Source: Burkholderiales bacterium 70-64
GTDB lineage: Bacteria > Pseudomonadota > Gammaproteobacteria > Burkholderiales > Burkholderiaceae_E
Direction: 5' to 3'
Length of the DNA stretch: 64,000 nucleotides
Assembly: GCA_001898645.1 (NCBI GenBank)
Contig: MKUQ01000046.1
Coordinates: 1 to 64,000 of the forward strand
In this document: positions 45,885-64,000 of the stretch, piece by piece
How the letters are laid out: each line of letters opens with the position of its first letter
Position numbering within the stretch: the stretch's first letter is position 1
Position numbers and translations under genes: made by a program
The notes under the pieces: model-generated
Told to the model about the DNA's origin: nothing
Database searches by the model: none
Seen by the model: only the letters and a program-made list of their open reading frames with translations

Positions 45885-46565
45885 ATGAGCACCGCCATGA
45901 ATACCGGCCAGCCCTCCCTTCCCGCCGGCGGCGCGGCGCCCTCCCCGGCGCCCGGCCTCGTCTACGTCGTCGACGACGACGAAGCGGTACGCGACTCGAT
46001 GCGGTGGCTGCTCGAGGCCAACGGCTTCGAGGTCGCTGCCTTCGCCAGCGCCGAGGAATTCCTCGCCCGGCTCCCGGACCCCGAGCCGATCGCCTGCCTG
46101 CTGCTCGACGTGCGCATGCCCGGCATGTCCGGCCTGGAGCTGCACGAAGAGCTGGTGCGCCGCGGCTCGACCCTGCCGCTGATCTTCGTCACCGGCCACG
46201 GCGACGTGCCGATGGCGGTGTCGCGCATGAAGATGGGCGCGCACGACTTCCTCGAGAAGCCGTTCAGCGACAGCCAGCTGCACCAGCTCGTCTCCGAGTG
46301 TCTGACGCGCGCCGCGGCAGCGCGCCACGACCGCGAGGCCGGCCGCGACGCCAGCGAGCGCGTGGAACGGCTCACCGGACGCGAGCGCCAGGTGCTCGAG
46401 CTGATCGTGGCCGGGAGGCTCAACAAGCAGATCGCCGACGACCTCGGCATCAGCATCAAGACCGTCGAGGCGCACCGCGCCAACATCATGGACAAGCTGG
46501 GCGCGCGCACCATGGCCGACCTCATGCGCATCGCGCTCAGGGCGGGCGCCCCGCGCGCCGAGTGA
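45885..46565 (+). CDS. FixJ/NarL-type response regulator (LuxR-type HTH)
   Basis: A 226-residue regulator. After a 23-residue Pro/Ala tail the receiver domain has VVDDDEAVRDSM (28-39), phospho-Asp75 in LLLDVRMPGMSG and Lys in FLEKPFSD (about 123). The FixJ-like helix-turn-helix (about 160-215) reads LTGRERQVLELIVAGRLN, then KQIADDLGISIKTVEAHR. It is the partner of the upstream kinase. Its 3' end overlaps the ModE-like gene on the other strand by 29 bases. Targets are unknown. Confidence 0.92.
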   Translation: MSTAMNTGQPSLPAGGAAPSPAPGLVYVVDDDEAVRDSMRWLLEANGFEVAAFASAEEFLARLPDPEPIACLLLDVRMPGMSGLELHEELVRRGSTLPLIFVTGHGDVPMAVSRMKMGAHDFLEKPFSDSQLHQLVSECLTRAAAARHDREAGRDASERVERLTGRERQVLELIVAGRLNKQIADDLGISIKTVEAHRANIMDKLGARTMADLMRIALRAGAPRAE

Positions 46566-47574
46566 GCGTCGTTCGTCCTCCTGCTCGCGCCGGCGCGTAG
46601 CCGGGCATCGCGCGCGCACGCCGGCGCAGCTCGCGCACCAGCACACGCACATCCGGGTGCTCGCCGAGCGCGCGCGCCCCGCACAGGAAGTACAGCTCGC
46701 TGCCCACCGCGACGAAGCCGAGCCCGAACTGCGCCGCCGCCGCGCGCAGCCCGAACCCGGCGTCCGCCGCACCGGCAGCCACCGCCGCCGCGACGGCGAA
46801 ATGGGTGTACTCCTCCTGCTCGTAGCCGCGGATCTGGCGCGGCTGCAGGCCCTGCTCCGCGAGCAGGCGGTCGAACCACGCCCGCGTGCCAGCTCCGCGC
46901 TGACGATTGACGAAGCGCAGTCCGGTGCGCGCGAGGTCGGCCACGTCGCGGATGCGCAGCGGGTTGCCGCGGGCCACGATCAGCCCCTGCTCGCGATGCA
47001 TCACCGGCTCGACGAACAGCGCACCATCGCGAAACGGCCCCGGCCGCTCGCGCACCGCGGGCAGCGGCTCGGGGAGGTGGAAACCGGCCAGCTCGGCCTC
47101 GCCGCGATCGAGCGCGGCCAGTGCATGCTCCGAGCCCACGAAGCTCACGCTCGGGCATGCATCCGGCTTCTCGGAGAGGGCCGCCTGCAGCAGCAGATCG
47201 TGGCTGGCCGCCAGCCTCAGCGGCTGCCGCGCCTCCCCGCGCAATGCCGCCAGCGCCGCATCGAGCTCGGCCGCGGGCCCCGCCAGGCGGCGCCGCGCGT
47301 TCCGCTCGAAGCGCGCACCGGCGTGCGCCAGCGCGGAGCCGGCCGCCGTGAGGCGGGTGCCGTGCCCCTTGACCCGTTCGACCAGCGCCACCCCGAGCAG
47401 GCGCTCCGCGCGCACCAGCTTCCCCCACGCCCCCCGGTACGACAGGCCGAGCGCACGCGCCGCCGCGCTCACCCGCGGTGCCGATCCGAGCGCCGCCAGC
47501 AGCCGCGCCAGCTCGGCGAGATCGAGCGAGTCACCGGCCAGGCGCAGCAGTGCGCCCGGATAGACTTCGAGCAT
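46537..47574 (-). CDS. ModE-like one-component regulator with periplasmic-binding-like domain
   Basis: About 345 residues. The N-terminal winged helix (about 12-85) is ModE/LysR-like (AAARALGLSYRGAWGKLVRA, then LTAAGSALAHAG). The rest is a PBP-like domain (PF12727 type) with VSFVGSEHALAALDRGEAEL and RGAGTRAWFDRLLAEQGL. In several bacteria this architecture regulates tungstate or molybdate uptake. It is divergent from the TupB-like permease, supporting that role. ATG 47574 (MLEVYPG) is chosen; another in-frame ATG lies 12 codons upstream. The 3' end overlaps the response regulator. Confidence 0.83.
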   Translation of the reverse strand: MLEVYPGALLRLAGDSLDLAELARLLAALGSAPRVSAAARALGLSYRGAWGKLVRAERLLGVALVERVKGHGTRLTAAGSALAHAGARFERNARRRLAGPAAELDAALAALRGEARQPLRLAASHDLLLQAALSEKPDACPSVSFVGSEHALAALDRGEAELAGFHLPEPLPAVRERPGPFRDGALFVEPVMHREQGLIVARGNPLRIRDVADLARTGLRFVNRQRGAGTRAWFDRLLAEQGLQPRQIRGYEQEEYTHFAVAAAVAAGAADAGFGLRAAAAQFGLGFVAVGSELYFLCGARALGEHPDVRVLVRELRRRARAMPGYAPARAGGRTTLTRRAGRPP

Positions 47575-47647
47575 GGCAGCCTCGGGGTCGTGGAGGAGCA
47601 AGATATGCAAACGATTGCCGAATGGATGCTACTACGCGGGCGATTCG

Positions 47648-47653
47648 TATACT
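47648..47653 (+). promoter_or_regulatory. -10 hexamer of the tungstate-type transporter operon
   Basis: TATACT ends seven bases before the permease ATG at 47660. The mRNA would start at or next to the start codon, so the first gene is probably translated without a leader. Confidence 0.45.
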
Positions 47654-47659
47654 CGCCGC

Positions 47660-48361
47660 ATGTTCACGGATGCGCTGTCCCAGGCGGTATGGCTGCTGCG
47701 CAGCTTCGAGGGCGACACCTTCGCCATCATCCTGCTGTCGCTGCGCGTGAGCCTCACCGCCGTGGCGATCGCCACGCTCATCGGCCTGCCGCTCGGCGCG
47801 CTGACCGCGGTCACGCGCTTTCCGGGCCGCGCCGGCGTGGTGGTCGCGCTCAACACCACCATGGGCCTGCCGGCGGTCATCGTCGGGGTCGGCGTCTACC
47901 TCGTGCTGTCGCGCAGCGGCCCGCTGGGCGTGCTCGGCCTGCTGTTCACGCCCACCGCGATGATCGTCGCGCAGGCCACCCTCACCACCCCGCTCATCGC
48001 CGCGCTCACCCGCCAGGTGGTCGAGGATGCCTGGCGCCTGCACGGCGAGACGCTGCGCTCGCTGCGCCTGTCGCTGCCGGCGCGGGTGCGCGTGCTGCTG
48101 TGGGACTGCCGCTTCTCGCTGGTCGCCGTGTTCCTGGCCGGGCTCGGGCGCGCGATGTCCGAGGTCGGCTCGGTGATGATCGTCGGCGGCAACATCGACC
48201 GCGTCACGCGGGTGATGACCACCGCGATCGCCCTGGAAACCAGCAAGGGCGATCTCGCGCTCGCGCTGGCGCTGGGCATCGTGCTGCTCGGCCTGGTGCT
48301 CGTGCTCAACATGCTCGCCAGCGCGATCCGCGCCGCCACCATGCGCCGCTATGGCCACTGA
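47660..48361 (+). CDS. tupB: Tungstate/molybdate-type ABC transporter permease (TupB-like)
   Basis: A 233-residue inner-membrane protein with five or six membrane segments. The ABC permease coupling motif EAA-like region reads LAGLGRAMSEVGSVMIVGGN (about 155-174). The pattern GLPAVIVGVGVYLVLSRSGP is characteristic of TupB/WtpB relatives. It is the first gene of a three-gene operon and overlaps the ATPase gene by 11 bases. Tungstate is favoured over molybdate by the adjacent TupA-like receptor. Confidence 0.87.
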   Translation: MFTDALSQAVWLLRSFEGDTFAIILLSLRVSLTAVAIATLIGLPLGALTAVTRFPGRAGVVVALNTTMGLPAVIVGVGVYLVLSRSGPLGVLGLLFTPTAMIVAQATLTTPLIAALTRQVVEDAWRLHGETLRSLRLSLPARVRVLLWDCRFSLVAVFLAGLGRAMSEVGSVMIVGGNIDRVTRVMTTAIALETSKGDLALALALGIVLLGLVLVLNMLASAIRAATMRRYGH

Positions 48362-49109
48362 GGACCGCGCCTCCCTGCTCAGCCTGCGCGCGGTCACCTT
48401 CCGTACCGACGAGCGGGTGATCCTCGACGCGGTCGACTTCGAGTGGGGCGATGCCGGCATCTGCGCGCTCATGGGCGCCAACGGCTCGGGCAAGACGGTG
48501 CTGCTGCGCACCATCCACGGCCTGCTCGCGCCCAGCTCCGGCGACGTGCGCTTCGAAGGCCGTCGCCGCGCCGGCGGCGACCTCGCCTTCGAGGGCCAGG
48601 CCCTGATGTTCCAGTACCCCTCGCTGTTCCGCGGCACGGCGCTGGAGAACCTGCTGCTGGTGCCGTGCGCGGGCACCTCGCGCCGCGCCAGGCGCACCCG
48701 TGCGCTGGCCATGCTCGAGCGCGTCGGCCTGCGCGCGCTCGCGCACGCGCCGGCGCCCAGACTGTCGGGCGGCGAGCGCCAGCGCCTCGCGCTCGCCCGT
48801 GCCTGGATGATCGCCCCGCGCCTGCTGCTGCTCGACGAGCCCACTGCGAGCCTCGACCCCTCGGCCACCGAGCAGGTCGAGCAGATCGTGCGCGACATCC
48901 GCGCCAGCGGCTGCCGCGTCCTCATGACCTCGCACAACCTCGGCCAGGTCGCGCGCCTGGCCGACGAGGTGGTGTTCATCGACCACGGCCGCCTGCTCGA
49001 GCGGCAGCCGACCACTGCCTTCTTCGCTCACCCTCGCAGCCGCGAGGCCCGCCAATTCCTGCAAGGAGTCCTCCCATGGCAACTCTCCGATCGATCCGGC
49101 AACGACTGA
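48351..49109 (+). CDS. tupC: Tungstate-type ABC transporter ATP-binding protein (TupC-like)
   Basis: A 252-residue ATPase. Walker A is GANGSGKTVLLR (about 42-53), with the Q-loop in ALMFQYPSLFRG. The ABC signature is LSGGERQRLALARAW (about 139-153), Walker B is LLLLDEPTASLDP and the switch His is in TSHNLGQ. It lacks the C-terminal TOBE/molybdate domain of ModC, as usual for TupC. It overlaps tupB at the start and tupA at the end (34 bases). Confidence 0.9.
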   Translation: MATEDRASLLSLRAVTFRTDERVILDAVDFEWGDAGICALMGANGSGKTVLLRTIHGLLAPSSGDVRFEGRRRAGGDLAFEGQALMFQYPSLFRGTALENLLLVPCAGTSRRARRTRALAMLERVGLRALAHAPAPRLSGGERQRLALARAWMIAPRLLLLDEPTASLDPSATEQVEQIVRDIRASGCRVLMTSHNLGQVARLADEVVFIDHGRLLERQPTTAFFAHPRSREARQFLQGVLPWQLSDRSGND

Positions 49110-49981
49110 AGACCGCCGCCGCCAGGCTGTCCGCGAGGCTGTCCGCCACGCTGCCGGCCACCGCTGCACTGCCGGCCGCTGCTGCGCTGTCGGCCGCCGT
49201 CCTCCTGGCCGCCCCCCTCGCCGCGCAGGCGCAGGAGTCCATCGTCGTGGCCTCGACCACCTCCACCGAGCAGTCGGGCCTGTTCCGGCACCTGCTGCCG
49301 GCCTTCGAGAAGGAAAGCGGCATCCAGGTGAAGGTGGTGGCCGTGGGCACCGGACAGGCGCTCGACATCGGCCGCCGCGGCGACGCCGACGTGGTGTTCG
49401 TGCACGACGCCAAGGCCGAGGAGAAGTTCATGGCCGAGGGCTACGGCGTCGGGCGCCACGAGGTCATGTACAACGACTTCATCCTCGTCGGCCCGAAGAG
49501 CGATCCGGCGCACGTCGGCGGCGGCAAGGACATCCTCGAGGCGATGCGCAAGATCGCCGCCGCCGGCGCCCCCTTCGCCTCGCGCGGCGACCGCAGCGGC
49601 ACGCACGCCGCCGAGCTGCGCTACTGGGAGGCGGCCGGCGTCGACCTCTCCCCCGCCAAGGGCAAGTGGTACAAGGAGACCGGCTCCGGCATGGGCCCGA
49701 CCCTGAACACCGCCTCGGGGCTGAACGCCTACGCCCTCACCGACCGAGGCACCTGGCTGTCGTTCAAGAACCGCGGCGAGCTGGCCATCCTCGTCGAAGG
49801 CGACAAGCGCCTCTTCAACCAGTACGGCGTGATGCTGGTCAACCCCGCCAAGCACCCGCAGGTGAAGCGCCAGGCCGGCCAGAAGTTCATCGACTGGCTG
49901 ATCTCGCCCGAGGGCCAGGCCACCATCGCCGGCTACAAGATCAACGGCGAGCAGCTCTTCTTCCCCAACGCGCGGAAATGA
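49076..49981 (+). CDS. tupA: Tungstate-type ABC transporter substrate-binding protein (TupA-like)
   Basis: A 301-residue periplasmic protein. A long Ala/Leu-rich signal region (1-55) is followed by ESIVVASTTSTEQSGLFRHL, the oxyanion-binding STTST signature of TupA. Further TupA features are GDADVVFVHDAKAEEKFM, SRGDRSGTHAAELRYW and GPTLNTASGLNAYALTDRGT. ATG 49076 has AAGGAG upstream inside the tupC end. It captures WO4 (or MoO4) for the permease. A tRNA gene follows directly. Confidence 0.92.
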   Translation: MATLRSIRQRLKTAAARLSARLSATLPATAALPAAAALSAAVLLAAPLAAQAQESIVVASTTSTEQSGLFRHLLPAFEKESGIQVKVVAVGTGQALDIGRRGDADVVFVHDAKAEEKFMAEGYGVGRHEVMYNDFILVGPKSDPAHVGGGKDILEAMRKIAAAGAPFASRGDRSGTHAAELRYWEAAGVDLSPAKGKWYKETGSGMGPTLNTASGLNAYALTDRGTWLSFKNRGELAILVEGDKRLFNQYGVMLVNPAKHPQVKRQAGQKFIDWLISPEGQATIAGYKINGEQLFFPNARK

Positions 49982-55319: not shown

Positions 55320-55739
55320 ATGAGCAAGACCACCACGATGAAGGTCGAAGTGCGCTTCGGCGACTGCGACCCGGCGGGCATCGTGTTCTATCCGCGCTAT
55401 CACCGCTGGATGGATGCCGCTTCGCTGCATTTCTTCATGAGCTGCGGGATGCCGCCCTGGCACGAGCTGGAGAAGCGCAACGGCATCATCGGCACGCCGA
55501 TGCTGGAGCACCACACGCGCTTCATGAAGAGCTCCACCTACGGCGAGACCATCGAGATCCACACCCGCGTCGAGGAATGGCGCCCCAAGGTCTTCATCCA
55601 GCTGCACCGTATCCTGCGCGGCGACGACCTGCTGTGCGAGAGCCGCGAGACGCGGGTGTTCTGCGTGCGCGATCCGCACGACCGGGCACGCATCCATGCC
55701 ATCCCGATCCCGGAGGACATCCGGCGCCTGTGCGAGTGA
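55320..55739 (+). CDS. Thioesterase, 4-hydroxybenzoyl-CoA thioesterase-like (hotdog fold)
   Basis: A 139-residue hotdog-fold enzyme. GDCDPAGIVFYPRYHRWMD (14-32) contains the catalytic Asp17 at the same position as in the Pseudomonas CBS3 4-hydroxybenzoyl-CoA thioesterase. The following HFFMSCGMPPWHELEKRNGI and the EEWRPKVFIQLHR strand also resemble that enzyme more than YbgC. The expected reaction is 4-hydroxybenzoyl-CoA (or a similar aryl-CoA) to free acid and CoA. It is the first gene of a rightward pair with an MFS transporter, opposite the UbiD cluster. Activity is inferred from similarity. Confidence 0.85.
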   Translation: MSKTTTMKVEVRFGDCDPAGIVFYPRYHRWMDAASLHFFMSCGMPPWHELEKRNGIIGTPMLEHHTRFMKSSTYGETIEIHTRVEEWRPKVFIQLHRILRGDDLLCESRETRVFCVRDPHDRARIHAIPIPEDIRRLCE

Positions 55740-57144: not shown

Positions 57145-57648
57145 CTAGACCATCAGGCTGGAGCCGCCGGCAGCGCCGGCCATCGGCATGGCCGCCCTCA
57201 TCGCGGGCGCATCGGGGTGGACCGCGCCGGTCTCGGCGGCCGCGCAGCGATGCACGGCGCTCGAGCAGCGCATGCGGCCCGCGTCGAGGGTGAGCACCAG
57301 ATCGGGATAGCGGCGCGCATCGGGGCACGCCTGCGCCTTGCCCTCCTCGAGGCGGAAGCCGTGCAGCGTGCCGCTGAACCAGGTGGCGAAGATGCTGTCC
57401 CCGGCAAAGGGGAACAGCTGGTGCAGGGTCATCGAGGAGCGATCGGACCACCGCCCCGCCACGGCGAGCAGGTACAGCCAGCCGTCGTCGATGCGCCAGC
57501 TCGCGGCGTAGCCGCGTCCCGCCGCCGGCGCCGCCTCGAGCAGGCTCGGACGCTGGCCGATCAGATCGAAGTAGGGCTCGAGCGGCTGCTCGAGCAGCAG
57601 GAAGCTGCGCCCGCGAAAGGCGAGCACGTCACCGTGATGCGTCTCCAT
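57145..57648 (-). CDS. Unknown protein downstream of the UbiX/UbiD cluster
   Basis: A 167-residue soluble protein that I do not recognise as a characterised family. Visible elements are GRGYAASWRIDDGWLYLLAV, FPFAGDSIFATWFSGTLHGF and a C-terminal Ala/Met-rich tail. The pair W-x-I-x-D-G-x-L-Y-L with ATWFSGTL recalls small uncharacterised bacterial proteins. No signal peptide or membrane segment is seen. It is the last gene in the direction of the cluster, 167 bases after ubiX, and converges with the MFS gene. Confidence 0.6.
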   Translation of the reverse strand: METHHGDVLAFRGRSFLLLEQPLEPYFDLIGQRPSLLEAAPAAGRGYAASWRIDDGWLYLLAVAGRWSDRSSMTLHQLFPFAGDSIFATWFSGTLHGFRLEEGKAQACPDARRYPDLVLTLDAGRMRCSSAVHRCAAAETGAVHPDAPAMRAAMPMAGAAGGSSLMV

Positions 57649-57815: not shown

Positions 57816-58403
57816 CTAGACCGAAGCCGGCACCTTCTGCGCGTGCCCGCTCCAGCGCCGGAACAGCTGGTGCTCCACGCCGACCTGGTCGAGCGCCTTG
57901 CCGATGCTCTGGTGGACGATGTCGATGATCGACTCGGGCCGATGGTAGAAGGCGGGCATCGGCGGCAGGATCACCGCGCCGCAGTCGGCCGCGCGCGTCA
58001 TCAGCTCGAGGTGCCCCTTGTGCAGCGGCGTCTCGCGCACCATCAGCACCAGCGGGCGGCGCTCCTTGAGCGTGACGTCGGCCGCGCGCACGACCAGGTT
58101 GTAGGTGAACGAATTGGCGATCGCCGAGAGCGTCTTCACCGTGCACGGCGCGACGATCATGCCGCGGGTGCGGAACGAGCCGCTCGCCAACGCCGCGCCC
58201 ACGTCCTTGTTCGGGTAGACCACGTCGGCCAGCGAGCGCACGTCGTCGAGCGTGTAATCGGTCTCGATCGCCAGGTTCATCCCGGCAGCTTCGCTGAGGA
58301 TCAGATGCGTCTCCTGCTTCAGGTCCTTGAGCACCCGCAGCAGCTCGACGCCGTAGATGACTCCGGTCGCACCGGTGATGGCGACCACCAGCGGCAGGCT
58401 CAT
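57816..58403 (-). CDS. ubiX: UbiX-type flavin prenyltransferase
   Basis: A 195-residue flavoprotein making prenylated FMN, the cofactor of UbiD enzymes. It shows LVVAITGATGVIYGVELLRV at the start, SEAAGMN, then GSFRTRGMIVAPCTVKTLSA and NLVVRAADVTLKERRPLVLM. The C-terminal part has RETPLHKGHLELMTRAADCG and PPMPAFY. The start ATG 58403 overlaps the CBS gene stop (ATGA). Its presence next to a UbiD-type gene argues that this UbiD uses prenyl-FMN. A catabolic paralog rather than the ubiquinone-pathway copy is likely from context. Confidence 0.92.
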   Translation of the reverse strand: MSLPLVVAITGATGVIYGVELLRVLKDLKQETHLILSEAAGMNLAIETDYTLDDVRSLADVVYPNKDVGAALASGSFRTRGMIVAPCTVKTLSAIANSFTYNLVVRAADVTLKERRPLVLMVRETPLHKGHLELMTRAADCGAVILPPMPAFYHRPESIIDIVHQSIGKALDQVGVEHQLFRRWSGHAQKVPASV

Positions 58404-59083
58404 GGCTCGATTTCCTCGCGGTGGGTGTCCACCGCCTCGATGATGGCGAAGCCGGCGGCCTCGAGCGCACGCACGACCGCCCCGAAGTCGCCTCCCTGGA
58501 AGCGCACGATGACCGGACGCACGGGATAGGTCTGCGCCGGGCCGGAATCGTGGCGGCCGATGGGGTAGATGCCCTGCACCGCCGCCCCGGCCGTGCCCAC
58601 GGCCTCGCAGATGCGCGCCAGCACGCCCGGGCCGAGCCGGATCGCGGCCAGGGTGACGCCGTTGCGCGGCCCCCAGGCGCCGATGCAGTGCGCGGCGAGC
58701 TGGAAGATCTCGTTGGCCGAGATCACGCCGACCACCCGATCGCCTTCCATGACCGGGAACTGCGCGATGCCCAGCTCCTGCCCGAGCCGCAGGCAGTGCT
58801 CCATGGTGTCGGAGGCGGCCACGCACATCGGCTGGCGCACCATGACGTCGCGCACCTTCAGCCGCGCAACGAAGAAGTTGAACTCGTCGGGATTCTGCGT
58901 GCGCAGCACGAACTGGCCCATGCGCAGCAGGTTGGCACGCGTGACCAGCCCGCGCAGCCGGTCGTCGTCGACCACCGGCAGCGCGTGCAGGTTGTTGTCG
59001 CTCATCAGGCGCTTGGCCTCCGAGACCAGCGTGTCGCCGCGGATCGTGATCGGATCCGGATGCATCCAGTTGCGTACCAGCAT
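58400..59083 (-). CDS. CBS-domain protein, phenylphosphate synthase gamma-subunit-like
   Basis: A 227-residue protein with tandem CBS domains. The first begins MLVRNWMHPDPITI and contains LHALPVVDDDRLRGLVTRAN. The second begins VRDVMVRQPMCVAA and contains FPVMEGDRVVGVISANEI. An ACT-like C-terminal part follows (about 150-222). In Thauera aromatica a 24-kDa CBS protein is the third subunit of phenylphosphate synthase and stimulates it. Size, order and neighbours fit that role. CBS pairs usually bind adenine nucleotides, suggesting energy-dependent control. Confidence 0.82.
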   Translation of the reverse strand: MLVRNWMHPDPITIRGDTLVSEAKRLMSDNNLHALPVVDDDRLRGLVTRANLLRMGQFVLRTQNPDEFNFFVARLKVRDVMVRQPMCVAASDTMEHCLRLGQELGIAQFPVMEGDRVVGVISANEIFQLAAHCIGAWGPRNGVTLAAIRLGPGVLARICEAVGTAGAAVQGIYPIGRHDSGPAQTYPVRPVIVRFQGGDFGAVVRALEAAGFAIIEAVDTHREEIEP

Positions 59084-59111
59084 CGCCTCGCTCTCCTTAG
59101 TCCAGTGAAAC

Positions 59112-60371
59112 CTAGGCCAGCGCGGGCGCCGGCGTCCCGGCGCGCCGGTACAGCTGCACGAAGGCGTCGACCGCCACGCGGGCGAACTCCGGCGTGTACA
59201 GGTGCAGGTCGACGCTGCGCACCCGCCCGGGCTCGTTCAGCCGCTCCTTCAACCTGGCCACGAATGCCGCGTCGGCCACCGGGTCGTAGATGGGACGGCC
59301 TTCGCGGTCCAGCGACGACCAGCCCTTCAGGGGCACCAGGAAGGTCCACGGTCCGCTCGCCCGGTTCAGCCGCTCGGCGATCACGTCGGCCGCCTGGAGC
59401 AGCTCCTCGGCGGTGGTGCGCACCTGCACGCGCAGCCGGTCCTGCACGTACTGCGGCCGGTCCTTGGTCTTCTCAAGCATGTCGGCACGTCCGCCGTACG
59501 ACAGGATGTCCAGGCCGCAGGGCGCCAGCACCATCGGGATGCCGGTCTCGACCGCGGCCATCAGCCGGTCCGGCCCGGGATCGCGATTGCCCTTGAACAG
59601 GTGCTCCATGATCCCGCCGATGCACAGGTCGAGCACGCCGTGGAAGGCGCCGTCGCGGATCATCTCCTCCATCGCCCGGTCGCCCTTGCCCTGCGCGTGA
59701 CAGACGATGGGCGTGAAGCCCGCCTCCTCGAGCATGCCGAGGGCGGCCTGCACCGCCATCTCGCCGAAGCCGAACGAGGAGACCGCCACGCACGGCTTGT
59801 CGAAGCGGATGTCGGTGCCCTGGGTCATCTCGACCATGCCGCAGATCGCGCCCACGGCGTTGACGATCTGCGCGCGCAGCAGGGGGTTCATCTTGACGAT
59901 GTCGAGCACCGTGTGGTGCATGGTGATGTCGCGCGTGCCGACGTACTGCTCGATGTAGGCCGGGTGCGCAGCCATCGGGGAGGCCATCACCTTGGGCATG
60001 CCGAACGGCAGCCGCTTCATGATCGAGGTGGACACCAGCGTCGCCGTTCCGCCGCCGATGCCGATGATGCCGTGCACCCTGCCTTCGCGCAGCAGGTCGT
60101 CGACGATGGCCGCCGCGCCGCGGATCTGGTTGTCGGTGGCCGTATCGCGATCGGAGCGGTATTTCTCGCGCACCACCTCGATGGGCAGGCCGCCGCGCGC
60201 GGCCACCTCCTCGGTGCGGATGTCGCCCGGGAACGGCGGCGGCTCCTCCATGCTGAAGTCGAGCAGGATCGGTTGATGACCCCGATCGGCGATCAGCTGG
60301 CGCACGAAGGCGATGTCCTCGCCGCGCGTGTCCAGGTTGCAGACGATGACGATGCCCTTCTTGCCGCTCAT
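59112..60371 (-). CDS. Tm-1-like ATP-binding protein (UPF0261)
   Basis: A 419-residue soluble protein matching the UPF0261/Tm-1 N-terminal domain. The start is GIVIVCNLDTRGEDIAFVRQ; later come HGIIGIGGGTATLVSTSIMK (Gly-rich loop), GTRDITMHHTVLDI and VAVSSFGFGEM. C-terminally FLVPLKGWSSLDREGRPIYD is conserved in the family. The plant homolog Tm-1 binds ATP and inhibits tobamovirus replication; bacterial functions are unknown. Here it is embedded between the UbiD and CBS genes with short gaps (61 and 28 bases), so a role in aromatic activation or carboxylation is inferred. Confidence 0.85.
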   Translation of the reverse strand: MSGKKGIVIVCNLDTRGEDIAFVRQLIADRGHQPILLDFSMEEPPPFPGDIRTEEVAARGGLPIEVVREKYRSDRDTATDNQIRGAAAIVDDLLREGRVHGIIGIGGGTATLVSTSIMKRLPFGMPKVMASPMAAHPAYIEQYVGTRDITMHHTVLDIVKMNPLLRAQIVNAVGAICGMVEMTQGTDIRFDKPCVAVSSFGFGEMAVQAALGMLEEAGFTPIVCHAQGKGDRAMEEMIRDGAFHGVLDLCIGGIMEHLFKGNRDPGPDRLMAAVETGIPMVLAPCGLDILSYGGRADMLEKTKDRPQYVQDRLRVQVRTTAEELLQAADVIAERLNRASGPWTFLVPLKGWSSLDREGRPIYDPVADAAFVARLKERLNEPGRVRSVDLHLYTPEFARVAVDAFVQLYRRAGTPAPALA

Positions 60372-60432
60372 GGCGTGCCCTTCCTCCGTGTGGTGACGCC
60401 GGCGGGCGATGGCGCCCGCCGGCGGGCGCGCT

Positions 60433-61950
60433 TCACTCGGCCTTCTTGGCCGCCTTCTTGACCTCCGGGCGCGTCAGGCGCGGGATCATGTCGGCCACCG
60501 GGCTGACCCCGGGGAAGCCGTACTCGTTCCAGCGATTCGACACCCGCTGCAGCATGGCGCGGTCCATGAAGATCTCCTGCGGCTTGTTCGCCCATTCATA
60601 GGGCGTGCAGGCATCCAGGATGATGCGGCTGGTGATGTCGCGCGCCTCGATGGGCAGGCCCGGGTCGAGCGGCGTCGAGCGCCCGCGGTCGATGATCTGC
60701 GCCGAGCGCTTCGGATCGAAGCGCGTGGCGAGCGCCCACCAGACCCGGTCCATGTCGTCGGCCTCGATGTCGTGGTCGACCACGATCACGCCCTTCAGCC
60801 CGTAGTGCCCGGTGGTGCTGGCGATCACCGCGTTGCCGACGTGGTTCGAGTGGCCCGGGTACATCTGCTTGACCGACACCACCGCCCAGAAGCGGCCGGT
60901 GGCCGCCGCCGGCAGGTACACGCTCTGGATGCCCGGCACCTTCATCGTCTCCAGGTCGTACCACAGCGCGCCGGTGCGGTTGAGCGACTGGATCATGTGG
61001 ATGTCGTTGATCGGCTTGCCGACCGTGGTCGACCAGAACACCGGCTTGTTGCGGTGCAGGATGCGCTTGACGCGCAGCACCGGCTTCGGATAGTCCTTGC
61101 CCTTGTTGCCCGAGTAGTAGCCGGTGTACTCGCCGAACGGCCCTTCGTCCATCAGCTCGTTCGGATCGATCCAGCCCTCGGCGATGATCTCGGCGTTGGC
61201 GGGCAGGGTGAGGCCGGTGAGGTCCGACTTGAACACCGGCACCGGCCGGCCGCGCAACGCGCCGGCCACGTCGTACTCGTCGGTCTGCGAGCTCACCAGC
61301 GTGGAGCTGGCCAGGAACAGCACCGGGTCGCAGCCGACCACGGCCGCGGCCGGCATCAGCTCGCCGCGCTCCTGGTACTTCTTCATGTGCATGTCGCCAT
61401 GCTTGCCCTTGATGATCTGAGAGCCGAGGATGTTCTTGCCGAGCACCTGCGAGCGGTAGGTGCCGAGGTTGGTCCAGCCGGTGTCGGGATCCTGCGTGAC
61501 GAGATAGCCCGCGGTGACGAAGAAGCGCCCGCCGTCGTCCGGGTAGAACCACGGCACCGGGAACTTCTCCAGGTCGACCGCATCGCCCTCGATCACGTTC
61601 TCCATCACCGGGGGGTTGTCGACGAAAGTCGGCTTGACCATCTGCTTGGTGGTGAGCTCCATCCACTTGCGCGAGAGCTGGCACATCGTCAGCCCCGGAT
61701 CCTGCTCGAGCGCGATCGCGATCCGCTCCGGGGTCGTGAACGCACTGGTGAACACCGGGATCGAATGTCCCTTGACGTTCTCGTACAGCAGCGCCGGGCC
61801 CTTCTTCTCCTCGTTGACCTTCGAGACGTGGCACAGCTCGTACTTCCAGTCGACCTCGGCCTTCACGCGATGAAGCTGCCCGTTGGCCTCGAGCGCCGCG
61901 ATGTAGCTGCGCAGATCGTCGATCAGTCCCACTTCCGTTCTTGCGTTCAT
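60433..61950 (-). CDS. UbiD-family (de)carboxylase, phenylphosphate carboxylase-like
   Basis: A 505-residue enzyme. Prenyl-FMN and catalytic motifs of UbiD are visible: Arg in NLGTYRSQVLGKN and the two Glu-bearing motifs AEIIAEGWIDP and EGPFGEYTGYYSG. Metal and flavin contacts lie in HGDMHMKKYQERG. UbiD relatives in anaerobic phenol metabolism (PpcA/PpcB) carboxylate phenylphosphate to 4-hydroxybenzoate; others decarboxylate phenolic acids such as vanillate or protocatechuate. The neighbouring phosphotransferase subunits favour the carboxylase route. The C-terminal tail is Lys/Glu-rich. It follows the ATP-binding subunit after 25 bases. Confidence 0.87.
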   Translation of the reverse strand: MNARTEVGLIDDLRSYIAALEANGQLHRVKAEVDWKYELCHVSKVNEEKKGPALLYENVKGHSIPVFTSAFTTPERIAIALEQDPGLTMCQLSRKWMELTTKQMVKPTFVDNPPVMENVIEGDAVDLEKFPVPWFYPDDGGRFFVTAGYLVTQDPDTGWTNLGTYRSQVLGKNILGSQIIKGKHGDMHMKKYQERGELMPAAAVVGCDPVLFLASSTLVSSQTDEYDVAGALRGRPVPVFKSDLTGLTLPANAEIIAEGWIDPNELMDEGPFGEYTGYYSGNKGKDYPKPVLRVKRILHRNKPVFWSTTVGKPINDIHMIQSLNRTGALWYDLETMKVPGIQSVYLPAAATGRFWAVVSVKQMYPGHSNHVGNAVIASTTGHYGLKGVIVVDHDIEADDMDRVWWALATRFDPKRSAQIIDRGRSTPLDPGLPIEARDITSRIILDACTPYEWANKPQEIFMDRAMLQRVSNRWNEYGFPGVSPVADMIPRLTRPEVKKAAKKAE

Positions 61951-61975
61951 GTCTGCTCCGTTGCGTTTTCCCAGC

Positions 61976-63103
61976 TCAGCCGACTCTCTTGCCCTTGAGC
62001 AGGCTCGAGAGGATGTAATCCATGGCGGTGCCCGATGATCCGGCCACCGCGGTCTGGCTCCGGGCGCTCCATACCGTCTCGGGCCGCGCCTGGAGGATGA
62101 AGATGTTCCCGCCCTCGGGCAGGTCTTTGTCGATCGCCCACTCGATGTCCATCGGGCGCCCGTAGTGCTTTTCGATCCGCTTGCCCATCCAGGCGAGCTC
62201 GGTGATCTCGTCGTCGATGAGCGACTGCACCTTCTGGCGCTCGAACGGGACGTCGGTGAGGCGCGAGGTCTGCGTCTTCGCGTCGACCGTGTAGCAGACC
62301 TCCTTGCACGAGACGGTGCGATCGATGATGTCGAGGGTGATCTTGTTGACCACGAAGTGATCGGGAGTGACCTGGCCCGAGACCACCGATTCGCCGAAGC
62401 CGAAGTTCGAATCGATCACGATCACCGAGCGGTCGCCGTTGGCCGGATGGATGGTGAACATCACGCCGGCGGTGTAGGAGTTGGCCATCTTCTGCACGCC
62501 GACGGCGATCGCCACGTCGTGCTCGGCATAGCCGTTCTTCGCCCGGTAGGCGATCGCACGCCCGGTGTACAGGCTGGAGATGCAGCGGCGCACGTGCGCG
62601 AGCACCTCGTCGATGCCGCGGATCCACAGGTAGGTGTCTTGCTGGCCGGCGAAGCTGGCGTCGGGCAGGTCCTCGGCGGTGGCGCTCGAGCGCACCGCCA
62701 CCGGCACCGCCGGCATGCAGCAGCGCACGCCCAGCTTGCGGTAGCCCTCCGCGACCAGGTCCTCCAGCTCGGTCGGGAAGGGCTGCGCCTCGATCCTCGA
62801 GCGGATGCGCTCGCTGGCAGCCTCGAGGGCATCGAGGTCGGCGACCTCGATGCCGGCCAGCAGCGCAGCCACCTCGCGATCGAGGCTGGCCCCGGCCATG
62901 AAGCGCCGGTAGCCCTCGGTGGTCAGGGCGAAGCCCGGCGGCACGCGTACCCCGGCGTGGATCAGCTCACCCAGCGAGGCGCACTTGCCGCCCACCAGCG
63001 GCAGCGACTCCTTCAGGCAATCTTCGAACCAGCACAGCAGCGGCATGCCGGCGCCAACCGTGCCGGCCGACGCCTTGCCGATCGCTTCCGCCAAATTGCC
63101 CAT
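61976..63103 (-). CDS. PEP-synthase-like ATP-binding subunit, phenylphosphate synthase beta-like
   Basis: A 375-residue protein equal to the N-terminal ATP-grasp part of phosphoenolpyruvate synthase: PLVGGKCASLGELIHAGVRV, VPVAVRSSATAEDLPDASFA and GQQDTYLWI. The end has MDIEWAIDKDLPEGGNIFIL, then QARPETVW. It lacks the swivelling-His and PEP domains, which are on the next upstream gene. In Thauera phenylphosphate synthase the same split occurs: this 40-kDa subunit binds ATP and drives phosphorylation of the His on the large subunit. ATG 63103 with GAGAGG is favoured over GTG 63109. Confidence 0.87.
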   Translation of the reverse strand: MGNLAEAIGKASAGTVGAGMPLLCWFEDCLKESLPLVGGKCASLGELIHAGVRVPPGFALTTEGYRRFMAGASLDREVAALLAGIEVADLDALEAASERIRSRIEAQPFPTELEDLVAEGYRKLGVRCCMPAVPVAVRSSATAEDLPDASFAGQQDTYLWIRGIDEVLAHVRRCISSLYTGRAIAYRAKNGYAEHDVAIAVGVQKMANSYTAGVMFTIHPANGDRSVIVIDSNFGFGESVVSGQVTPDHFVVNKITLDIIDRTVSCKEVCYTVDAKTQTSRLTDVPFERQKVQSLIDDEITELAWMGKRIEKHYGRPMDIEWAIDKDLPEGGNIFILQARPETVWSARSQTAVAGSSGTAMDYILSSLLKGKRVG

Positions 63104-63112
63104 GTCCACCTC

Positions 63113-64000
63113 TCAGCGCGTGATGGTGATCGCGCCCGTCGAGCCGTCGACGCGCACCCGCATGCCGGTCTTGATGATCTTCGTCGCGTGTCCGGTGCCG
63201 ACCACCGCCGGCATCCCGTACTCGCGGCAGACGATCGCCGCGTGGCTCATCACGCCGCCCACGTCGGTCACGCAGGCGCCGATCTTGGCGAAGGCCGGTG
63301 CCCACGAGGGCGAGGTGGTCGGTGCCACCAGGATCTCGCCTTCCTGCAGGGTGCCGACCTCGCTCACCGTGCGGCACACGCGCGCCTTGCCCTCGACCAC
63401 GCCCGGGCTGCCGGCGAAGCCCTTGAGCTCGGTGATGCTGTCGGGGTCGCTGACCTCCTGCACCGAGGCCCAGTCGGCGAGCGACTTGTTGGTCACGCCC
63501 CACAGCACGATGGTGAACGGCTCCTGGATCACCTCGGGTGCCGTGCCGATGGCCGGCGGCGCGTTCCATTCCTTGAATTTCTGCATCACGCCCTTGCGCC
63601 AGCCGATCTCCTTGGGCCAGGTGGCGGTGCCGCGCGGGGTGACCCCGGTGGCCCAGGCGGTGACGATGTCCCACAGCGCCGTCTTGATCTCGTCGCGGCG
63701 CATCAGCCAGACGTCCTCGATGTCCTCGATGACGCCGTGCTCCTTCATGATCGCGGCGACCTCGCGCATCTTGTTCCAGAACACCGAGTGGAACCAGTGC
63801 TCGACATAGAACAGGTGGTTCTCGACGTAGGGGAACACGGTCTTGGCGCAGCCGAGCAGCTCGTCGAACTGCTTGCGGTCCTCCTCCTTCTCGATCAGGT
63901 CGCGGTACTCGGCCGTGATGCGGTCGCGCTCGGCGCGCACCTTCTCGGTGGGGCGGTCGATGCTCTGGCCCTTGCGCAGCTTGCCGATGTAGGTGGCGAT
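63113..64000 (-). CDS. PEP-utilizing phosphotransfer subunit, phenylphosphate synthase alpha-like, C-terminal part (cut by window edge)
   Basis: The frame is open to the right edge; 295 residues are visible and the start lies outside. The swivelling phosphohistidine domain is at the C-terminus: GSPGVVEGKARVCRTVSEVG, ILVAPTTSPSWAPAF and GGVMSHAAIVCREYG, where the His after GGVMS is the phospho-acceptor. Upstream is a helical region with YVENHLFYVEHWFHSVFWNK. The Thauera alpha subunit (about 70 kDa) has the same arrangement and passes phosphate from His to phenol. It is followed after nine bases by the ATP-binding subunit gene. Confidence 0.85.
   Translation of the reverse strand: MATYIGKLRKGQSIDRPTEKVRAERDRITAEYRDLIEKEEDRKQFDELLGCAKTVFPYVENHLFYVEHWFHSVFWNKMREVAAIMKEHGVIEDIEDVWLMRRDEIKTALWDIVTAWATGVTPRGTATWPKEIGWRKGVMQKFKEWNAPPAIGTAPEVIQEPFTIVLWGVTNKSLADWASVQEVSDPDSITELKGFAGSPGVVEGKARVCRTVSEVGTLQEGEILVAPTTSPSWAPAFAKIGACVTDVGGVMSHAAIVCREYGMPAVVGTGHATKIIKTGMRVRVDGSTGAITITR

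Follow-up and report, generated by a model that had tools for sequence, protein, structure and literature searches.

How does an operon that appears equipped to phosphorylate phenol carboxylate its product with one UbiD protein, and what does a Tm-1-like protein of the UPF0261 family do among its genes? The question is raised by a 64,000-nucleotide stretch of Burkholderiales bacterium 70-64 (contig MKUQ01000046.1, positions 1 to 64,000; hereafter the window), at whose right end (57816-64000) six genes lie on the (-) strand. An earlier note on this DNA described them as a variant phenylphosphate-type cluster, and our gene calls and domain families verified the content, order and strand that it gave; in transcription order they are ppsA-ppsB-ubiD-UPF0261-CBS-ubiX. 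Judged from sequence, the six genes probably form a phenylphosphate-synthase operon in which a simplified UbiD carboxylase and a UPF0261 phosphotransferase stand in for the subunits PpcA, PpcC and PpcD.

All six genes could be assigned to families by domain search. The ppsA gene (63113..64000, with only its 3' part in the window) encodes the phosphohistidine subunit, a PEP-utilizers swivel protein that matches NF006152 at 1254 bits (cut-off 723). It is followed by ppsB (61976..63109, starting at 63109 or 63094), the PPDK_N ATP-grasp subunit of phenylphosphate synthase, which carries the ATP-grasp motifs. The ubiD gene (60433..61950, 505 aa) encodes a PpcB-type carboxylase that uses prenylated flavin mononucleotide (prenyl-FMN), with UbiD N, middle and C domains. 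The UPF0261 gene (59112..60371, 419 aa), with UPF0261 N and C domains and a predicted structure discussed below, encodes a Tm-1-like, Saro_1862-like protein that we regard as a probable aryl-hydroxyl phosphotransferase. The last two genes encode a protein with two CBS stretches, resembling the third synthase subunit PpsC (58400..59083, 227 aa), and the flavin prenyltransferase UbiX, a flavoprotein (57816..58403, 195 aa; NF004685, 249 bits, cut-off 188; TIGR00421, 243 bits, cut-off 109). The earlier note's phenylphosphate-synthase-type kinase is thus represented by its swivel, separate ATP-grasp and CBS subunits, which are predicted to phosphorylate phenol, and the CBS gene is displaced as described, lying downstream of both ubiD and UPF0261.

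The window ends within ppsA. The contig (C46) continues to 89,508 bases, and extension to the right gave the completed ppsA (open frame C46:63113-64984), a -24/-12 site and a divergent regulator with XylR_N, V4R and sigma-54 domains (C46:65333-67156). Gene calling on the contig from the regulator to ubiX gave neither another UbiD nor a small or HAD-type carboxylase subunit, which agrees with the single UbiD and the missing subunits previously remarked upon.

When genomes were scanned with four aligned PpsA proteins, 255 relatives came up; the best 80, ranked towards the query, were analysed. Together with the window and four further loci they make up 85 labelled loci, whose types were assigned by script from gene clusters, except for L049, whose UPF0261 has a frameshift, and L064, in which the contig ends within the ligase; both were assigned by hand. 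Type 1, the classical operon with ppcA, accounts for 28 loci, several Aromatoleum among them; as far as the contigs reach, its order is regulator, ppsA, ppsB, CBS, ppcB, ppcD, ppcA, ppcC, a third UbiD and ubiX. Type 2, with ubiD and UPF0261, accounts for 33 loci including the window, and in the six type 3 loci an AMP-forming ligase occupies the UPF0261 slot. Nine of the remaining loci are cut and nine are not typable. The full six-gene order of the window recurs in 27 of the 33 type 2 loci, some with an added NUDIX gene (the NUDIX and ligase labels, like the PNPOx and metallophosphoesterase labels below, come from one representative each). The exceptions are L050, L079, L082, L085 and L090, in which the examined stretch has no ubiX following CBS, and L091, which has UPF0261 without UbiD. 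Judged by record titles, type 2 hosts are for the most part Burkholderiales, Rhodocyclaceae and further Betaproteobacteria, plus one metagenome-assembled genome (MAG) each of Xanthobacteraceae, Acetobacteraceae and Myxococcales. One type 2 locus, L061, belongs to a strain whose genome is no MAG, Ramlibacter lithotrophicus RBP-1. The co-occurrence of UPF0261 with split synthase, UbiD and CBS genes, for which the earlier note proposed a search, holds across genomes. A one-off rearrangement was rejected, since the same operon type is found at 33 loci; the carboxylation system proposed as new is indeed a variant, but it is not unique to this genome.

Where the next gene after a type 2 or type 3 UbiD can be read (n = 40), it is UPF0261 in 33 cases, the ligase in six and CBS in one; in seven more the contig ends first. 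All seven type 2 genomes searched have the type 2 UPF0261 clade (E<=1e-80), as does G414, the genome that contains L091; none of six type 3 and 23 type 1 genomes has it. The type 3 ligase clade (E<=1e-110, up to 29 best candidates scored per genome) was present in all six type 3 genomes and in none of 33 type 2 (G414 included) and nine type 1 genomes. Because no genome in these searches has both, the two genes are mutually exclusive in the genomes examined. In G414 (C56; loci L091, L130 and L131) two pps clusters lie side by side, and both have a V4R regulator of their own. In one, UbiD is followed directly by CBS, with no UPF0261 or ligase; UPF0261 lies about 6.6 kb away in the other, which lacks UbiD.

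Cassette exchange is visible in trees of the individual genes. A careful PpsA tree was built from 64 of the 85 rows, omitting cut and untyped loci, the long-branch loci L023-L026 and L091. In it types 1 and 2 are intermixed, type 1 requires 6 changes, and a single type 1 clade is rejected by the approximately unbiased test (p-AU 5.1e-61). The window PpsA falls among those of classical pps-ppc operons, and not outside the synthase clade as would be expected had the phenylphosphate assignment been wrong. Quick trees, with the same omissions and two distant UbiD rows dropped, gave type 1 changes numbering 2 for PpsB, 4 for the regulator and 3 for UbiX. In contrast, UbiD in these quick trees shows a single split between type 1 and types 2 and 3 (support 100), and CBS a single split between type 1 and type 2 (support 100; no type 3 row). 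Loci L107 and L112 display the exchange directly, with type 1 flanks enclosing a type 2 ubiD-UPF0261-CBS cassette. Their regulator, PpsA, PpsB and UbiX are 88-96% identical to type 1, with no more than 83% identity to type 2 (UbiX, 89-90% versus 59%), and their downstream genes also match type 1 best. Their UbiD, on the other hand, is 94% identical to type 2 versus 55% to type 1, their UPF0261 91-92% to type 2, and their CBS 77-78% to type 2 versus 67-69% to type 1. That chimeric assembly produced the mixed trees was rejected: L107 and L112 belong to separate MAGs, and in the cut loci L096, L098 and L102, too, type-1-clade PpsA goes with type-2/3-like UbiD. In L065 only PpsA is type-1-like (97%), and a chimeric assembly may be the cause there. 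Most likely, ubiD-UPF0261-CBS is a cassette that replaces PpcABCD; that synthase and carboxylase parts can be interchanged suggests one substrate common to both operon types.

Both kinase subunits appear intact. The PpsA motif GGxMSHAAIV, present in the window, is found in 33 of 33 type 2 PpsA proteins and QARPET in 33 of 33 type 2 PpsB proteins; in 11 of the 33 PpsB proteins, deviation is confined to a short stretch after AED. A dead PpsAB with UPF0261 as the sole kinase was rejected on the strength of these motifs. The only full-length PpsA-like protein in the window genome is that of the operon itself.

The window UbiD belongs to the beta type. It matches TIGR02724 (phenylphosphate carboxylase beta) at 563 bits against a cut-off of 469, reaches only 191 bits with the alpha model (cut-off 565) and is about 52-55% identical to type 1 PpcB. 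Its R-E-E triad, whose residues we take to have roles in the UbiD active site, is kept in 32 of 32 type 2 rows, and also in all type 1 alpha and beta rows, so that it is not type-specific. The window assembly (63 contigs, 98% complete) has no PpcA above the curated cut-off and no PpcD above cut-off, the best PpcD match reaching 128.5 bits against 282; thus no standard ppcA or ppcD gene over cut-off, next door or elsewhere in it, speaks against the earlier note. PpcA above cut-off was found in 0 of 32 type 2 and 0 of 5 type 3 genomes versus 9 of 9 type 1 genomes; among type 2 genomes, the PpcD search covered that of the window. Among clustered genes, PpcD occurs in 28 loci and a gamma-like (PpcC) cluster, c10, in 27, all with PpcA and hence type 1 (no genome-wide PpcC search was made). 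Alpha and delta subunits encoded elsewhere, as in Desulfatiglans anilini, were rejected on these results for PpcA in 32 type 2 genomes and for PpcD in the window genome. Two further UbiD proteins of the window genome exceed the phenylphosphate carboxylase beta cut-off (G000:C60, L010:9505-11013; G000:C36, L011:8974-10446), and both adjoin genes that by eye resemble TctC-type binding proteins.

What, then, is the UPF0261 protein? Its predicted structure (pLDDT, the predicted local distance difference test score, 91.3) has Tm-1 as the top Foldseek match (3wrx_B, E 1.1e-34). The closest bacterial structure is 9mpy_A (E 1.9e-34), whose PDB title reads 'Saro_1862, a UPF0261 domain protein from Novosphingobium aromaticivorans with bound acetovanillone'. 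Of 35 residues invariant among 17 type 2 and six other UPF0261 proteins, 33 are identical in Saro_1862. According to the available part of PMC13101465, the acetovanillone pathway of this organism begins with a kinase, MarK, and we infer that Saro_1862 is MarK. The window genome encodes a second UPF0261 protein (C16:37077-38267), 56% identical to Saro_1862, in a cluster (G000:C16:30819-38306, L129:2819-10306) with a biotin carboxylase, an oadA-like carboxyltransferase, a HAD-IIA phosphatase and an acetoacetate-CoA-ligase-like gene; a 159-aa frame before the biotin carboxylase was taken by eye as a biotin carrier. This content is close to that of the Hpe/Acv pathway as far as it is set out in the accessible portions of PMC9618137 and PMC13101465, with UPF0261 at the expected place of the kinase. 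Because of its likeness to Saro_1862 and this second cluster, the window UPF0261 is probably an aryl-hydroxyl phosphotransferase. The earlier label, Tm-1-like ATP-binding protein, is right about the fold, but the protein is better described as a relative of Saro_1862 (probably MarK), and the earlier suggestion of a replacement part or phosphate handler still appears likely. Six UPF0261 relatives from outside the operon align to the window protein at only 26-29% identity, and their gene context was of little help. Among 369 class members, five, one of them the window genome, gave NF002676 matches at E<=1e-120. In the open-access literature, no publication tying UPF0261 to phenylphosphate operons was found.

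The regulator points to the inducer. Its sensor aligns to that of MopR without gaps and has a V4R pocket with His106 and Trp134. We compared 17 sites, four of which we take to be the zinc sites of the MopR sensor. The other 13 are its phenol-pocket sites as given in the part of PMC10715001 available. The window regulator equals MopR at 16 of the 17, the sole difference being Ser166 to Thr, and its 17-letter string recurs in 23 of 30 type 2 and 14 of 26 type 1 regulators. PheR, the regulator adjoining pps-ppc in Aromatoleum aromaticum, is linked to phenol in the same portion of PMC10715001. The script-called ppsA start has the -24/-12 site, TGGCACGCCCGTTGCA, 109 bases upstream; strict sigma-54 sites of this kind precede ppsA in 24 of 72 gaps, the window included, versus 0.1 expected. 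With the phenol pocket of MopR preserved in the regulator and a synthase in common with classical operons, phenol itself is most probably the substrate; among the candidates named before (phenol, catechol or another phenolic) the others are less favoured. HcrA exceeds its cut-off in 23 of 33 type 2, 4 of 6 type 3 and 7 of 9 type 1 genomes (34 in total), and PobA in 23 of 33, 2 of 6 and 5 of 9 (30 in total). The window genome has both, so that use of 4-hydroxybenzoate there is probable. In G414, HcrA is on the same contig as both pps clusters.

We think it somewhat probable that this is a phenol-induced operon for the conversion of phenol to 4-hydroxybenzoate, with UPF0261 as a phosphotransferase of the Saro_1862/MarK type acting on the phenol/phenylphosphate pair. 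The sigma-54 activator with its phenol pocket would switch the operon on, and PpsA, PpsB and the CBS subunit would phosphorylate phenol, converting ATP to AMP and inorganic phosphate. The single prenyl-FMN UbiD, with its cofactor supplied by UbiX, would carboxylate the activated phenol to 4-hydroxybenzoate, which could proceed by the 4-hydroxybenzoyl-CoA reductase or the PobA route. The ubiD-UPF0261-CBS cassette would take over the function of the classical CBS-PpcB-PpcD-PpcA-PpcC-UbiD3 block, and UPF0261 would serve as a single-component, ATP-dependent phosphotransferase. For this enzyme the forward direction, in which it would form ADP as a second phenol kinase and supply UbiD, seems slightly more likely.

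Several observations weigh against this interpretation. The PpsAB motifs appear intact, and a second phenol kinase is not obviously required. Type 3 manages without UPF0261 although its UbiD is 83-90% identical to that of the window, and so does the G414 cluster that lacks the ligase as well, with UPF0261 in the neighbouring cluster. Identity between the window UPF0261 and Saro_1862 is only 31% and the Foldseek TM-scores are moderate (0.58-0.61), for which reason the substrates of the two proteins may differ. UbiD proteins matching the PpcA model at 341-360 bits, well below the cut-off of 565, occur in 3 of 32 type 2 genomes (341-355 bits) and 1 of 5 type 3 genomes. HcrA is not over cut-off in 10 of 33 type 2 genomes. 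Lastly, 72 of the 80 named loci carry MAG titles, and the sample is the best 80 of 255 relatives, ranked towards the query.

The same phosphotransferase could also work at the other end of the reaction. In Thauera, according to the accessible part of PMC7500099, PpcD (the delta, HAD-type subunit) turns phenylphosphate into a phenolate intermediate. UPF0261 travels with UbiD rather than with the synthase, lying within the swapped cassette of L107 and L112, and so it may replace PpcD, which in our loci is confined to operons with PpcA. It would then strip phenylphosphate of its phosphate at the carboxylase, with ADP as a possible acceptor, and pass phenolate to UbiD. This would require a kinase-type enzyme running backwards, an inferred direction that itself counts against the proposal, and type 3, with the same kind of UbiD, has neither UPF0261 nor PpcD in its operon; we therefore consider it unlikely, if deserving of attention. 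The more specific version, in which UPF0261 is a reversible aryl kinase in PpcD's stead that moves the phosphate to ADP beside UbiD and recovers one ATP, is a shade more doubtful; if true, it would make the system a phenol carboxylase of new composition and energy balance. The type 3 operons speak against a strict need for either role, be it second kinase or PpcD replacement.

Two further proposals give UPF0261 another substrate. It could be a kinase for a different phenolic (catechol, cresol or hydroxyacetophenone) that broadens the range of the operon, as Saro_1862 binds acetovanillone and MarK opens acetovanillone catabolism according to PMC13101465. The regulator pocket fits phenol sensors, though, and gene calling from ppsA to ubiX in the window gave neither another carboxylase nor a ring-cleavage gene, which leaves this proposal improbable. 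Alternatively, UPF0261 and the type 3 ligase, which share one slot and exclude each other across genomes, could be alternative uses of ATP that pull the product forward, with UPF0261 acting on 4-hydroxybenzoate. This is very unlikely: L112 has UPF0261 and, in the same locus, a type-1-like PaaK-type ligase downstream, and the solved relative, Saro_1862, binds a phenolic ketone and not an acid.

Several other genes recur near these operons. A PNPOx/YhbP-like, flavin-type protein lies beside the regulator gene in 63 of the 85 loci, in types 1, 2 and 3 (for the operon described here, L008:17195-17653, C46:67195-67653, past the right end of the window). A CTP-dependent riboflavin kinase-like (DUF120) protein follows ubiX in 22 loci, all type 1 (e.g., L058:19762-20169), and might feed FMN to UbiX. 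Fifteen loci, with all three types represented, have a calcineurin-like phosphoesterase close to ubiX (e.g., L103:12541-13320). Downstream of ubiX in the window is a 167-aa open reading frame without known Pfam domain (57145..57648, (-) strand), which has a homologue in two other type 2 loci and may lie outside the operon. A 4HBT-type thioesterase is encoded on the opposite strand (55320..55739, (+) strand), with a homologue in 6 of 85 loci including the window. By eye, positions 46537-49981 resemble a tungstate/molybdate-type ABC uptake operon with a regulator.

If this account is correct, a simpler system can take the place of the multi-subunit phenylphosphate carboxylase while synthase and regulator stay the same, and the poorly characterised UPF0261 family, known from plant Tm-1, would be linked to phenol activation. 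UbiD, UbiX and UPF0261 would offer a two- or three-protein system for testing the opening and carboxylation of phenylphosphate, with possible uses in CO2 fixation onto phenols and in phenol removal in low-oxygen reactors.

Among known systems, the operon most resembles the anaerobic phenol operon of Thauera and Aromatoleum (ppsABC-ppcABCD, PheR), with which it shares a phenol-pocket regulator, PpsB, CBS, a PpcB-type UbiD and UbiX; its PpsA is 81-82% identical to those of Aromatoleum loci among the best 80 of 255 matches. It differs in the moved CBS gene, the added UPF0261 and an operon without PpcC or third UbiD, in a genome without PpcA or PpcD over cut-off. A lone beta-type UbiD clustered with pps alpha and beta is already known from the phe cluster of D. 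anilini, whose alpha and delta subunits are located elsewhere (PMC6114531, in the part available); unlike D. anilini, the 32 type 2 genomes have no PpcA over cut-off, and that part of the paper names no UPF0261 in the phe cluster. The window UPF0261 shares fold and core residues with plant Tm-1 and with the UPF0261 proteins paired with TIM-barrel (TBST) partners, as far as these are covered by the accessible text of PMC5028733, but no TIM-barrel partner is among the operon genes. The Hpe/Acv pathway of N. aromaticivorans with MarK also phosphorylates an aryl-hydroxyl group before carboxylation, by the available account in PMC13101465, and Saro_1862 is likewise a UPF0261 protein. That pathway uses a biotin-dependent carboxylase and a separate phosphatase, in the same account, whereas the window operon has UbiD instead, together with PpsAB.

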